Part shown: piece by piece, positions 10,562-43,962 of the stretch
Layout of the letters: each line of letters begins with the position of its first letter
Numbering within the stretch: position 1 is the first letter of the stretch
From: Parasphingorhabdus sp.
Lineage (GTDB): Bacteria > Pseudomonadota > Alphaproteobacteria > Sphingomonadales > Sphingomonadaceae
DNA length: 64,000 nucleotides
Assembly (NCBI GenBank): GCA_030373505.1
Contig: JAUCYS010000002.1
Location: 124,001-188,000, forward strand
Reading direction: 5' to 3'
Notes under the pieces: generated by a model
Databases searched by the model: none
What the model was told of the DNA's origin: nothing
Seen by the model: the letters and a program-made list of their open reading frames with translations, nothing else
Translations under genes and position numbers: made by a program

Positions 10562-10590
10562 TTGCAATTCGTTTTTGCTCGCCATATCGG
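10562..10590 (+). promoter_or_regulatory. putative promoter of the B12 operon
   Basis: TTGCAA (10562-10567) is followed after 17 nt by TATCGG (10585-10590), placing the transcript start a few bases before the riboswitch. The -10 box is weak, so this is a positional prediction. Confidence 0.4.
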
Positions 10591-10600
10591 GGCGTCGCGA

Positions 10601-10780
10601 CAGGTTCCCAGAGATGGGATTAATAGGGAACACGGAAGCAGGTATCTACCCCTGTAATCCGTGGCTGTCCCCGCAACTGTGACCGGAGAGCGGTCGCCCC
10701 ATCATGCCACTGGATGCATCAGCATCCGGGAAGGCGGGGCGGATGTGTTGACCCGGAAGCCAGGAGACCTGCCTGTTGCA
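10601..10780 (+). ncRNA. cobalamin riboswitch
   Basis: Binds adenosylcobalamin and switches off the downstream operon. The conserved core is plain: AGGTTCCC at the 5' end, TAGGGAACACGG, the CCGTGG...CCCCGCAACTGTGACC segment, CCACTGGATGC, CCGGGAAGGCGGGGCG, and the B12 box AGCCAGGAGACCTGCC at 10758-10773. It reads on the plus strand, toward btuB at 10935, in a leader of more than 300 nt. The boundaries are approximate. Confidence 0.96.
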
Positions 10781-10907
10781 GTCGGTCCTTTACGCGGACG
10801 GGGTGTTCAGCGTGATCGAGGTTCATCCTCGCGTGACGACATCGATCGGGGTGGCGCGCGCGGGTGATATGCCAGCGAATGCTCTGTCGTGCCATGAGCG
10901 CGTGCAA

Positions 10908-40989: not shown

Positions 40990-42831
40990 TCAGGTCATCG
41001 ACAGTTCCGACAGCTGTGCTTTCACTTTCTGGATGCCGCGATCAAGCTCCTTGAGCGTCCGGGCGCGCGTGCTCATGTTGTCCGTGCATTTCGCCGCTTC
41101 GGCGCGGCCTTTTTCCAGACCCGACAATGTTGCCTTGAGAATGGCCGCCCTGTCGACCTTGACTTCAAATCCGCCGCAACCAGCCACCACCGCCCAGGCC
41201 TGACTGGTGAGTCCATTTTTCCCGCTCATTGCGATCTGCTTGTTCATCGCCTTGCAGTCGGGACCGTTGCTGCTGGCCGCATGCGCGCTGCTTCTCGCAT
41301 AGGATATCGAGGAAAGGAGAGCGGTCCGGCTTTGCTCGCGAGCCTCAAGGGCAGCCTCGCGCTGGGCCTGCTGGGCTTCGCGCAAAGCCTCGCGCTGGGC
41401 CTCGCGCGCTTCTCGCATCGCTTCGCGCTGGGCTTGCCGTGCCTCCCGCTGCGCTTCGCGCACTTCCCGGTCTGCTTCCCGCAGCTCCCGTTCCATTTCG
41501 CGCTTGGCTTCGGCCAGTTCCCGGTCGACTTCGCTCATCGTCGAGCGCATCTCGGTCTCATCCCATCCGCTTTCGTGCAGCGCTTTCTCGGCCTCCAGCC
41601 GCGACTGTTCGGCTTCCTTGACCATCTGCCGCACTTCCTGTTCGCTCAGTTTCTTGTCTGTGCGCAATATAATGGTTCGGCCATTATGCTTGATGGTGTG
41701 AACATGGTCGTCGGCCGGGTCATAATCCTTGCGCCCGTTGAGCATGGTGATGGTGGTAACCTCGCCCACCTTTGCCGGTGCGGACGGTGCCGAGGGGGCT
41801 TCGGGAGCAAAGACCGCCGACGAAGCAGCCGGAGCGGATGGCGCTGCCGGTGGGAGCGGTGCCAGTGGCGCCTCAGGAACAGACAGGCCCACAGGATCGA
41901 CCGATTCGGCATAGGTGACGGTTGCCGTCAGCGGCAGCGCGATGACCGTCCCTGCCGCCACCAGTGCGGCTCCCAGTCGCCGGCGCAGCGTCGATTTTTC
42001 TGACTGGCCGAGCATTTTCAGCCGTCCCTTGATCTTGTCCTTCTGGTTCAGCGGACTGGCCAGACCCAGCCGGTGGCCGGATGCCGACTTGGCGATGGTC
42101 CGGCCATAGATGGCCCGGACATCGCGCCCGCTCTGCGCCAGCACCCGCGCGTCGCAGGCCGTTTCCTGGTCCTGCCGGAAGGCGATCCAGGCAAACCAGG
42201 CGACCGGATTGAACCAGTGCAGCGACAGGATCGACAGACCGACGAAATTGGCCGCCAGATCGCCGGCTTCGTGGTGGGCGATTTCATGTTCCAGAGCCAG
42301 TTTCCGTTCCCGCGGTGCATAGTCGCGGAAGAAATTGGTCGGGACCGCAATATATTTGTCGAACAGGCCAAAGGCGAGAGGCCCGCCGACCGCCGCCGTT
42401 TCGAGAATCTTGATATTGCCATGACGGCTGATCAGACGGCCGTCGGCGACGATGTCTTCCCGAAACTGCAGATAGGCGGCCAGTTTGCTGATGAACAGGA
42501 GCCCCGCTCCGCCAAGCCAGAGGATGAGCGCAATCATCATCCAGTCGAGCGAAGCCAGGGCGCCGAATGCGCTGCTTTGGGCAGGGGCGGCGACAAGCAG
42601 ATCGGAACCGGTCGTTGCCGGCACGAATGCCGCTATCGGCTCAACCTCGGCCGGTGCCTCGAGCGTCAGCGTTGGCATGAACAGCCGCGCCACCGGCACG
42701 ATCCAGAGCAGATAGGCGATACGGGCGCCGAAAAAATGGGCCACCGGCTTGCGGATTGCCAGCACCAGCAGCAACAGCAGGGTCATCGAGACCATGGTAT
42801 CCCAGATCCATTGGTTCAGTTCGCCACTCAT
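40990..42831 (-). CDS. M56 family metallopeptidase (BlaR1-like) with long charged helix
   Basis: Integral-membrane zinc protease of 613 residues. N-terminal hydrophobic helices (about 10-26, 38-53, 97-120) surround the protease motif HEIAHH at 182-187, with QETACDARVL as the downstream metal-ligand segment. A further helix near 295-312 leads to a Pro/Ala-rich linker and a periplasmic domain with a striking run of QREAxREA-type repeats (about 410-500), predicted coiled coil, then a Cys-containing C-terminus. There is no penicillin-binding domain, so the signal sensed is not evidently a beta-lactam. It overlaps blaI by 4 nt. Confidence 0.87.
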   Translation of the reverse strand: MSGELNQWIWDTMVSMTLLLLLVLAIRKPVAHFFGARIAYLLWIVPVARLFMPTLTLEAPAEVEPIAAFVPATTGSDLLVAAPAQSSAFGALASLDWMMIALILWLGGAGLLFISKLAAYLQFREDIVADGRLISRHGNIKILETAAVGGPLAFGLFDKYIAVPTNFFRDYAPRERKLALEHEIAHHEAGDLAANFVGLSILSLHWFNPVAWFAWIAFRQDQETACDARVLAQSGRDVRAIYGRTIAKSASGHRLGLASPLNQKDKIKGRLKMLGQSEKSTLRRRLGAALVAAGTVIALPLTATVTYAESVDPVGLSVPEAPLAPLPPAAPSAPAASSAVFAPEAPSAPSAPAKVGEVTTITMLNGRKDYDPADDHVHTIKHNGRTIILRTDKKLSEQEVRQMVKEAEQSRLEAEKALHESGWDETEMRSTMSEVDRELAEAKREMERELREADREVREAQREARQAQREAMREAREAQREALREAQQAQREAALEAREQSRTALLSSISYARSSAHAASSNGPDCKAMNKQIAMSGKNGLTSQAWAVVAGCGGFEVKVDRAAILKATLSGLEKGRAEAAKCTDNMSTRARTLKELDRGIQKVKAQLSELSMT

Positions 42832-43196
42832 TTTTTCAACTCCCTCAAAAGCTCCTCGATTTCGCGGATATCCTCGGCGCTCAATTCATCGGCCTCGGCC
42901 AAATGGGCAACCAATGGCATGACTTTTCCCCCGAAAAGCCGATCCACAAAATTTCGTGACACGCCGGTCAGATAGGCATCCCGTTCGACCAGCGGTGAAT
43001 AGAGAAAACGGCGACCGTCGCGCTCGGTCCCGACCACTGCCTTGGCGGCCAAGCGCGACAGCAGCGTCTTGACGGTCTGCAGCGACCAGTCCTTTTCGTC
43101 TGCCACCCGATCGGCCACTTCCGTGGCGGTCAGCGGCGCGCGCTTCCAGAGGACTTCCATGACGGCATGTTCTGCATCGCTAATGCGTTCGGTCAT
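42828..43196 (-). CDS. BlaI/MecI/CopY family repressor
   Basis: Winged-helix repressor of 122 residues (ISDAEHAVMEVLWKRAPLTATEVADRV, KDWSLQTVKTLLSRLAAKAVV, seen in pieces). In this family the partner M56 protease cleaves the repressor on signal. The gene is coupled to the M56 protease, and a perfect BlaI-type dyad lies 33 nt upstream, so the pair should be autoregulated. Confidence 0.92.
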   Translation of the reverse strand: MTERISDAEHAVMEVLWKRAPLTATEVADRVADEKDWSLQTVKTLLSRLAAKAVVGTERDGRRFLYSPLVERDAYLTGVSRNFVDRLFGGKVMPLVAHLAEADELSAEDIREIEELLRELKK

Positions 43197-43242: not shown

Positions 43243-43408
43243 TTAATCGACCACGGATGTAAACAGTGAATGTCGGGAGCGATGTCGTTGGTGGATCATC
43301 AGCGGCCGTTTGTCGAAAACAGGCGCTTGTCGGAATATTTTACACGCACCGCGATCCTTAACGGCGCATAAACCGGGCAAGTAACTGTAATTCAAGGTTT
43401 TCCGAAAA

Positions 43409-43426
43409 CTGGCACGACCGATGCAA
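43409..43426 (+). promoter_or_regulatory. sigma-54 promoter
   Basis: CTGGCACGACCGATGCAA matches the -24/-12 consensus YTGGCACG-N4-TTGCW at all but one informative position, with the invariant GG (43411-43412) and GC (43423-43424) exactly 10 nt apart. The predicted start is near 43436. No plus-strand gene follows. Confidence 0.75.
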
Positions 43427-43435
43427 GGTATTGGT

Positions 43436-43597
43436 CGTACAGAATGTTTCACAACCCCACCCCCCTTTCACGAGGGATAAATGAGGGGGACAATCGACTG
43501 GTCTCTGTTGTCCCATCTCGTTGAAAATTCGACAAAGCTTACCCAAGCTTACCCCAAATGAAAACGGCCCGGTCCTCCTAGACCGAGCCGTTTTTAT
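43436..43597 (+). ncRNA. candidate sigma-54-dependent small RNA
   Basis: Transcription from the sigma-54 site would run about 160 nt to the terminator at 43563-43597 without meeting a credible coding sequence. The RNA would have a C-rich 5' segment (ACCCCACCCCCC), a stem GGGACAA (43488-43494) with TTGTCCC (43508-43514), two tandem AGCTTACCC copies near 43537-43556, and a terminator hairpin whose loop displays CCTCCT, complementary to Shine-Dalgarno sequences. The remainder of the blaI-grxD gap (43265-43408) shows no gene; enhancer sites for the activator would be expected there. Confidence 0.5.
43561..43597 (+). terminator. bidirectional terminator
   Basis: AACGGCCCGGTC (43563-43574) pairs with GACCGAGCCGTT (43581-43592) with one mismatch. 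T tracts on both strands let it serve the plus-strand RNA and the convergent grxD transcript, whose stop is 38 nt away. Confidence 0.9.
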
Positions 43598-43629: not shown

Positions 43630-43962
43630 TTAGGCCTGGGCGGGAGCAACCTTTTTCTCGGCCATCAGTTCGCCAAGTTCGCCGGCCTCATACATTTCCA
43701 TCATGATATCGCTGCCACCGACAAATTCGCCTTTGACGTAGAGCTGCGGAATGGTCGGCCAGTCGGAATAATCCTTTATTCCCTGACGGACTTCCATGTC
43801 CTGCAGCACATCAAAGGACTCGAAGCCCACTCCGAGATGCTCCAATATGGCAACGGCGCGACTGGAAAAGCCGCACTGCGGAAACAGCGGGGTGCCTTTC
43901 ATGAAAAGCACCACGTCATTGCTGTTCACCACCGCTTTGATTTTTTCGTTCACGTCGGTCAT
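43630..43962 (-). CDS. grxD: monothiol glutaredoxin, Grx4 type
   Basis: CGFS-type glutaredoxin of 110 residues that binds and hands on [2Fe-2S] clusters together with BolA. The active site CGFS lies in FPQCGFSSRAV near residue 30, with the glutathione-binding WPTIPQLYVKGEFVGGSDI segment. It is the last gene of the leuC-to-grxD run, 10 nt after bolA. Confidence 0.96.
   Translation of the reverse strand: MTDVNEKIKAVVNSNDVVLFMKGTPLFPQCGFSSRAVAILEHLGVGFESFDVLQDMEVRQGIKDYSDWPTIPQLYVKGEFVGGSDIMMEMYEAGELGELMAEKKVAPAQA

Follow-up and report, generated by a model that had tools for sequence, protein, structure and literature searches.

The locus at positions 43409 to 43597 of the window (the whole stretch of DNA analysed, 64,000 nucleotides from Parasphingorhabdus sp.) raises the question of what a sigma-54 promoter drives when no gene follows it, what controls this promoter and on what its product acts. 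The preliminary description of the locus proposed a regulatory RNA under sigma-54 control, and this proposal is supported: the promoter, the hairpins and the terminator are conserved in relatives, in the absence of transcript data. We consider it probable that the product is a trans-acting small RNA (sRNA) of the PrsK-PrsR/RpoN (PEP-CTERM, exosortase A) regulon that represses the Flp/Tad pilin. The conservation of promoter and enhancer box, the RNA structure, the occurrence of the RNA across the bacterial family, the co-occurrence with PrsR and the complementarity to flp were established computationally; flp as the target is inferred from sequence. The features of the locus are collected in Table 1.

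Table 1. Features of the sRNA locus and its neighbours, by position in the window.
Feature	Position	Strand	Remarks
blaI-like repressor gene	42828-43196	-	Penicillinase_R; flanks the RNA element opposite grxD
Enhancer box TGTCGGAATATTTTACA (TGTCG-N7-TTACA, 17 bp)	43328..43344	+	Predicted PrsR binding site; kept before the RNA in the genus
-24/-12 sigma-54 promoter CTGGCACGACCGATGCAA	43409..43426	+	Conserved in relatives; rpoN in the genome
Small RNA gene	43436..43597	+	Start inferred about 12 nt past the GC element; the terminator is the end
5' mini-hairpin	43463..43476	+	Two groups within the genus differ in sequence
Middle hairpin with conserved loop	43480..43522	+	Helix 1: 97.3% of cells paired, 3 pairs changed on both sides
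Proposed seed CUGGUCUCU	43498..43506	+	Complementary to the flp pilin Shine-Dalgarno sequence GGAGACCAG: 8 Watson-Crick pairs and 1 G-U pair
Tandem AGCTTACCC linker	43537..43554	+	Present twice in 2 of 21 genus sequences
Intrinsic terminator, loop CTCCTA	43563..43595	+	Helix 2: 97.6% of cells paired, 5 pairs changed on both sides
grxD, monothiol glutaredoxin Grx4	43630..43962	-	TIGR00365 above cut-off; convergent neighbour, landmark

The GG (43411-12) and GC (43423-24) elements of the promoter are 10 nt apart, as first described, and the promoter is conserved in the genus. The genome encodes RpoN (E 1e-68); the locus thus meets the sequence criterion for a sigma-54-dependent gene, a -24(GG)/-12(GC) promoter together with RpoN. 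The motif is weak when taken alone (38 occurrences of TGGCAC-N6-TGC in the genome of the window versus 27 for the reversed pattern, little above chance) and becomes significant because of its conservation in the genus. The claim that no coding sequence follows on the plus strand agrees with the list of open reading frames (ORFs), which has none of at least 80 aa between 43409 and 43597; a 26-aa ORF is not conserved as a protein. The 164-nt RNA folds with -57.4 kcal/mol (z -5.7), and in the proposed seed 7 of the 9 bases are unpaired at values of at least 0.97, with the other two mostly paired. A terminator scan flagged the plus strand alone at the RNA 3' end; as the stem is symmetrical, we infer that it may double as the terminator of grxD on the minus strand. 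Being non-coding and structured, with its own promoter and terminator, the RNA meets the structural part of the criteria for a trans-acting base-pairing sRNA. On its other side, the region 40990-43196 contains the blaI-like repressor gene and then, by eye, the gene of a BlaR1-like membrane protein whose long C-terminal part is rich in Ala, Glu and Arg.

A blastn search of 30 relatives found the element in 15 of 18 genomes of the genus and in none of 12 others. Among named relatives, it is present in Parasphingorhabdus marina DSM 22363, P. flavimaris SW-151 and Sphingorhabdus sp. 109 and EL138. Seventeen of the initial 21 stretches were kept, and four without promoter or structure (L100, L101, L102 and L104, from Cyclobacteriaceae, two Comamonadaceae and Kribbibacterium) were set aside as chance matches. 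Alignments contained 14 (A1) and 21 (A2) sequences, with the incomplete L006 and L106 excluded and same-contig copies counted once. Within the genus CTGGCAC-N6-TGC is nearly unchanged, the upstream block TGTCG..TTACA is present and the RNA core AATGAGGGG..CTGGTCT..CCCCTCTCATT is kept together with the terminator. The 21 distinct sequences pair in 97.4% of cells, with changes on both sides in 8 of 26 pairs, whereas slid-structure controls pair in 33-52% of cells in the same sequences. A covariance model (R1) scored at least 56 bits in 30 of 32 genus genomes, including 24 of 24 of good quality; the two below this value are drafts (89% complete, with a weak match of 23.6 bits, and 82% complete). 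Promoter and box were recognized by regular expression at 28 of the 30 strong loci and by eye at the remaining two, where the promoter is kept and the box varies: at L127 it ends in TGACA, in the same place as in L010, and at L165 it has a single base change. The test set in advance, that promoter and hairpins be conserved in relatives, as judged by a covariance search among other means, was passed. The promoter class and the status as an RNA are well supported by computation, without transcript data.

Some details of the RNA require revision. Its most conserved feature is the loop CTGGTCTC (CTGGTCT in 20 of the 21 genus sequences), which, like the upstream box, was absent from the preliminary description. 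The stem given there as 7 bp belongs to a hairpin (43480-43522) that is longer than this, and the tandem AGCTTACCC is present in the window but is rarely found as two copies in the genus (Table 1). No match above the gathering threshold was found at the RNA with Rfam 15 in the window and 16 relative loci. The only matches above threshold there were tRNAs and the cobalamin riboswitch of the window (10585-10790; RF00174, 124.7 bits); below threshold there was, for example, Thr_leader close to the terminators of L187 and L189, at 25-34.5 bits where the gathering threshold is 55.

The alignments also bear on whether the RNA instead encodes a small peptide, from the ORF that starts at 43481. AGGAGG precedes the ATG in several members of the genus, where the first 14 or so codons are alike. 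However, L010 loses the frame, with a matching insertion in the opposite stem arm, the stops are scattered, third positions show no bias and the stems differ in other genera. We find a peptide hardly tenable as an explanation. The 26-aa ORF (ATG 43481) was rejected as a protein, with 8/6/6 variable columns at codon positions 1/2/3.

The box lies 64 nt upstream of the promoter. According to the accessible part of Haft 2006 (PMC1569441), PEP-CTERM motif 1 is a 17-nt element ending in TTTACA, predicted to be the PrsR site, and its spacer to the -24/-12 motif averages 62.8 nt (S.D. 10.6); the box TGTCGGAATATTTTACA and its spacing agree with this description. The partial texts available also report an RpoN-dependent PEP-CTERM gene in Aquincola (PMC9850573), a Zoogloea PEP-CTERM gene regulated by RpoN and PrsK-PrsR (as cited in PMC9012009) and the enrichment by a predicted Desulfovibrio PEP-CTERM regulator (DVUA0057) of its five predicted targets (PMC3333781). 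The genome of the window encodes PrsK, PrsR, EpsB_2 and exosortase A; epsB2, prsK and prsR form an operon, after which comes a prsT-like gene that scores below its cut-off.

Among 40 relatives, 27 contain the combined box and sigma-54 pattern, at 46 sites in all, and the reversed pattern occurs in none. Of the sites, 18 are the RNA, 20 are of a type that precedes a 76-aa gene and 8 are PEP-CTERM-like. Each of these 8, of which two are from the genus and six from other families of the order, stands before the gene of a secreted-looking protein whose tail is PEP-CTERM-like; five of the proteins are above the TIGR02595 cut-off, one is short of it by 0.2 bits and two have weak matches to related models. 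The 20 sites of the 76-aa type are all within the genus; one of them (that in the genome of the window) was translated and the rest were assigned from the matched sequence. Such box-promoter sites occur in 27 of 32 relatives with PrsR and in 0 of 8 without it (Fisher 2e-5; among the latter, G019 is narrowly below the cut-off with a fragment). The box at 43328-43344 is a predicted PrsR site, for which there are no binding data. Of the three cues first suggested, surface is the only one that fits, because the box is of the PrsR/PEP-CTERM type; nitrogen and stress are without support.

Several other sites of this kind were observed. The strict pattern in the genome of the window found the RNA and a 76-aa gene and no PEP-CTERM gene. 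The latter site, the second PrsR-type box with a sigma-54 promoter in this genome (G000:C17:88286-88359; L036, L058), precedes the gene for a 76-aa protein with no Pfam or NCBIfam match, which is beside a gene that we take to be astB-like. A TGTCG..TTTACA box in reverse orientation stands about 52 nt before the epsB2-prsK-prsR operon (L057:10061-10130; G000:C19:46113-46129), with no consensus -24/-12 site between the two; autoregulation is possible. At L059:3921-4270 (G002:C469) a sigma-54 promoter resembling that of the RNA is followed by two genes in tandem, which encode alanine-rich peptides of 40 aa that start MTNSNIQNQ.. and MLSPKFQNR..

Outside the genus the best R1 score was 33.8 bits, and many of the hits read were terminators. 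Two weak hits in other genera, L139 and L144, have the box, the promoter, grxD and the same loop on a different stem. As these proved to be real, a pattern of box, promoter and CTGGTC was used for a wider search. It was found in 85 of 397 Sphingomonadaceae genomes, representing 32 of 96 genera, and the reversed pattern in none. The pattern is strict, so RNA-bearing genomes may be missed, while the 55 matches with unopened loci may include a few chance ones. One such match, in G116, has a promoter of the kind that precedes the 76-aa gene. Two hairpins on the minus strand of two g57 genomes (L133, L137), with the loop TCTGGTCCC followed by ACTTACCCCC (by eye), lack the strict promoter pattern and are perhaps diverged members of the family.

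The 30 loci read outside the genus hold the motif at 33 places, 27 of which put CTGGTC in an apical loop whose stem has 5 bp or more; of the 56 other occurrences of CTGGTC in these loci, 4 are so placed. The loop CUGGUCUC is displayed on stems that are unrelated in sequence across genera. grxD is convergent with the RNA at 27 of these loci, as in the window, and within about 300 nt at 22; of the remainder, it is on the same strand at one and was not found at two. Some copies of the RNA are 0.5-1.5 kb away from grxD or tandemly duplicated. At L183, L184 and L186 (G265, G301 and G223) the RNA gene is duplicated on one strand, and both copies have a box and a promoter of their own. The rival view that there is no functional RNA, only the terminator of grxD and a promoter match that arose by chance, would suit the symmetry of the stem, its position adjoining grxD and a promoter motif near chance frequency (38 versus 27). 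It can scarcely be reconciled with the joint retention of promoter, box, loop and paired stems, or with the distant and duplicated copies.

PrsR is above its cut-off in 40 of 40 sampled pattern-positive genomes and in 30 of 40 pattern-negative genomes (Fisher 5e-4). The positive genomes were sampled from 75 outside the genus, and 31 were read as RNA loci, with 9 unread; as the pattern contains the box, the co-occurrence is partly built in. These counts, and the identity of the box with that of PEP-CTERM genes, make it very unlikely that the sigma-54 sRNA answers to a different enhancer-binding protein, of the NtrC or FlbD type, even though NtrC-family proteins are abundant (9-30 matches per relative genome) and binding by PrsR rests on prediction only.

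The motif UGGUC is found 2-4 times per RNA at 11 of the 30 loci outside the genus and as a single copy at 19. The multiple copies, which include those in the terminator loops of L195 and L196, and the conservation of the loop on variable stems could indicate that the RNA titrates a protein that recognizes CUGGUC hairpins, as CsrB-type RNAs do CsrA. The RNAs with a single copy speak against titration, which also leaves the complementarity to the flp leader unexplained, and we regard it as highly improbable. In g56 a terminator loop (L195, L196) repeats the motif (ACTGGTCC), and the five g56 RNAs have 3-4 copies of UGGUC each.

The anti-Shine-Dalgarno loop of the preliminary description was of the right kind but was assigned to the terminator, where CTCCTA is present in 19 of 21 genus sequences; outside the genus CTCCTA occurs within 110 nt after the loop at 1 of 33 places, and there not in the terminator by eye. 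The terminator loop was rejected as the main seed on this distribution. The strongest candidate is the loop of the middle hairpin, CUGGUCUC.

GGAGACCAG, the complement of CUGGUCUCC, includes a Shine-Dalgarno core. The pattern GGAGACCAG-N{0,9}-ATG was matched 100 times over 26 genomes and its reversed form 26 times; a few of the 100 overlap, and one (G007) is the RNA locus itself. The genes behind 50 matched loci were read (30 + 20, several of them the same place), and among these flp alone recurs in almost every genome of the genus (11 of 12). The longer GGAGACCAGACATG occurs once in each of these 11 genomes, every time at the start of a Flp/Fap pilin gene (PF04964), and the twelfth carries GGAGACCAAACATG before flp. 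In G216, a genome outside the genus, this 14-mer GGAGACCAGACATG stands before the gene of a protein other than Flp, and GGAGACC was absent by eye from the flp leaders read in seven genomes of other families of the order. Flp was selected after the loop match had been seen in the genus.

For 45 genomes from 13 genera, the leader of the main flp gene was set against the genome's own RNA; a 46th genome, G147, was left out for want of a recognized main leader, and one copy each was taken of the tandem RNAs of L183, L184 and L186. Full GGAGACCAG is present in the leaders of 14 of 15 genus-1, 4 of 7 g65 and 1 of 1 g108 genomes, and in no leader of the other ten genera, where shorter loop matches are kept (5 bp in g102). 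Pairing of the loop with the Shine-Dalgarno sequence (site 2) showed no covariation between genera, with 141,618 of 200,000 permutations as good, and site 2 alone could therefore be a general anti-Shine-Dalgarno loop. Pairing of the RNA 5' segment with the flp leader from -48 to -13 (site 1) does covary: only 112 of 200,000 genus permutations were as good, and the mean energy in a contiguous-helix test was -14.4 kcal/mol for cognate and -11.9 kcal/mol for non-cognate pairs. The segments that pair at site 1 are UGGUCUUCG with CGAAGACCA in g56 and g69, UGGUCUUCGAU with AUCGAAGACUA in g52, UAGUCUUCG with CGAAGACUG in g84, GGUUUCACU with AGUGAAACC in g102 and CUCGUUCCAGA with UCUGGAACGAG in g108. 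Outside the genus, the test of site 1 does not depend on the choice of Flp; its regions were set after inspection of the leaders, and the genera in the permutation tests are not independent samples.

Dinucleotide shuffles gave a median p of at most 0.05 for site 1 in 6 of 13 genera (g102, g108, g51, g52, g56 and g69) and for site 2 in 8 of 13 (g1, g108, g38, g51, g65, g69, g84 and g88). For the genus of the window only the loop pairing is significant (median shuffle p of 0.006, versus 0.55 for site 1). With the neighbouring second flp-like leader of the same genome as a control, flp was the better partner in 32 of 33 genomes at site 2 and in 28 of 33 at site 1. Whole-length duplex energies gave a genus permutation value of 15/100,000, but the cognate duplex of the genome of the window was the worst of its row (-16.5 versus a non-cognate mean of -23.9), and many genus-1 and g51 cognate pairs were worse than those with foreign RNAs. 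The whole-length duplex allows stems to unfold freely, which is why the contiguous-helix test was added.

These results must be weighed against the possibility that the PrsR/sigma-54 sRNA is a broad regulator with several targets, acting on Shine-Dalgarno sequences in general, for which the Flp pilin is one target among others or not the principal one. Shine-Dalgarno sequences are matched by the loop CUGGUCUC and, in the genus, also by the terminator loop CUCCU, site 2 lacks covariation, and GGAGACCAG is also found before a secreted-looking protein in G016, G147 and G207 and before an enoyl-CoA hydratase-like gene in G000 and G005 (by eye). Yet among the matches read flp is the only gene that recurs in almost every genus genome, and its site-1 pairing covaries between genera, so that we judge a broad regulator unlikely.

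On the favoured reading, repression of the Flp pilin by an sRNA of the PEP-CTERM regulon, active PrsR bound to the box would drive sigma-54 polymerase from the promoter at 43409-43426. The resulting RNA of about 160 nt would display CUGGUCUC in a hairpin loop, and this loop may pair with the Shine-Dalgarno sequence of the major Flp/Fap (Tad) pilin mRNA; in several other genera the 5' segment of the RNA is predicted to pair further upstream in the flp leader as well. Occlusion of the flp ribosome-binding site would block ribosome binding, and Flp pilin is proposed to fall under PrsR activation while PEP-CTERM surface proteins rise. Transcription, PrsR binding, the direction of control, any need for Hfq and the physiology are inferred, there being no transcript, binding or expression data. 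With somewhat less assurance, we also favour a family-wide role, in which the sRNA serves the PEP-CTERM/exosortase system as its post-transcriptional arm: PrsR would turn matrix proteins on and the Tad pilus off through a two-site, co-evolved clamp on the flp leader, a switch from pilus to matrix.

Floc- and biofilm-forming bacteria are among the carriers of PEP-CTERM/exosortase systems. If the proposal is true, a regulatory RNA is added to the PEP-CTERM regulon that links it to Tad pili, another attachment machine, and the passage from pilus attachment to matrix becomes open to a concrete mutational test. The sequence signature allows the RNA to be annotated in many genomes.

Alphaproteobacterial sRNAs such as alpha-r14 and CcsR expose CCUCC anti-Shine-Dalgarno loops. 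The RNA described here resembles them in its loop-exposed anti-Shine-Dalgarno sequence (the genus terminator loop CUCCU) and differs in its main conserved loop CUGGUCUC, its sigma-54 promoter and the lack of an Rfam match over threshold. In the Qrr and GlmY/GlmZ systems a short RNA is transcribed with sigma-54 under a response regulator of the enhancer-binding type, and base pairing with mRNA is its usual mode of action. The RNA of the window is likewise predicted to be driven by a response regulator and sigma-54, but its predicted regulator is PrsR, its hosts are Sphingomonadaceae and its proposed target is the Flp pilin. Qrr RNAs and GlmY/GlmZ are known sRNAs driven by sigma-54 and an enhancer-binding protein (PMC10162802, PMC8745638, PMC7073468). 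The Desulfovibrio response regulator DVU0679 also has an sRNA gene as a target (PMC3333781); in the available text, however, it is not the PEP-CTERM regulator of that species, and its sRNA adjoins the regulator gene and is of unknown function. The locus shares the kind of box, the spacing and the -24/-12 promoter with the PEP-CTERM/exosortase regulon (PrsK-PrsR, RpoN), whose members named in the portions seen encode proteins, whereas the product here is an RNA.

Within the same bacterial family, the sRNA SuhB of Sphingopyxis granuli TFA is trans-encoded, 61 nt long and growth-rate regulated, and it pairs with the 5' UTR of its target thnR and represses translation in an Hfq-dependent manner (PMC6563040, available in part). 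Trans action, 5' UTR pairing and translational repression are proposed for the RNA of the window too, whereas the length, the growth-rate regulation and the target of SuhB set it apart. FnrS is another sRNA reported in Sphingopyxis, and in the material available the targets of SuhB and FnrS differ from flp. No report of an sRNA in the PEP-CTERM regulon or acting on the Flp pilin was found in the literature (preprints and most subscription papers were outside the search), nor one of PrsR control beyond PEP-CTERM proteins in Sphingomonadaceae. The RNA is thus of a kind already known, an sRNA driven by sigma-54 and a response regulator, and new in a regulon without a reported RNA in the literature found.

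A further observation concerns the secreted-looking protein of G016, G147 and G207: its gene is preceded by GGAGACCAG(T)AATG (L217, L244 and L245), and the protein is a possible second target of the RNA.
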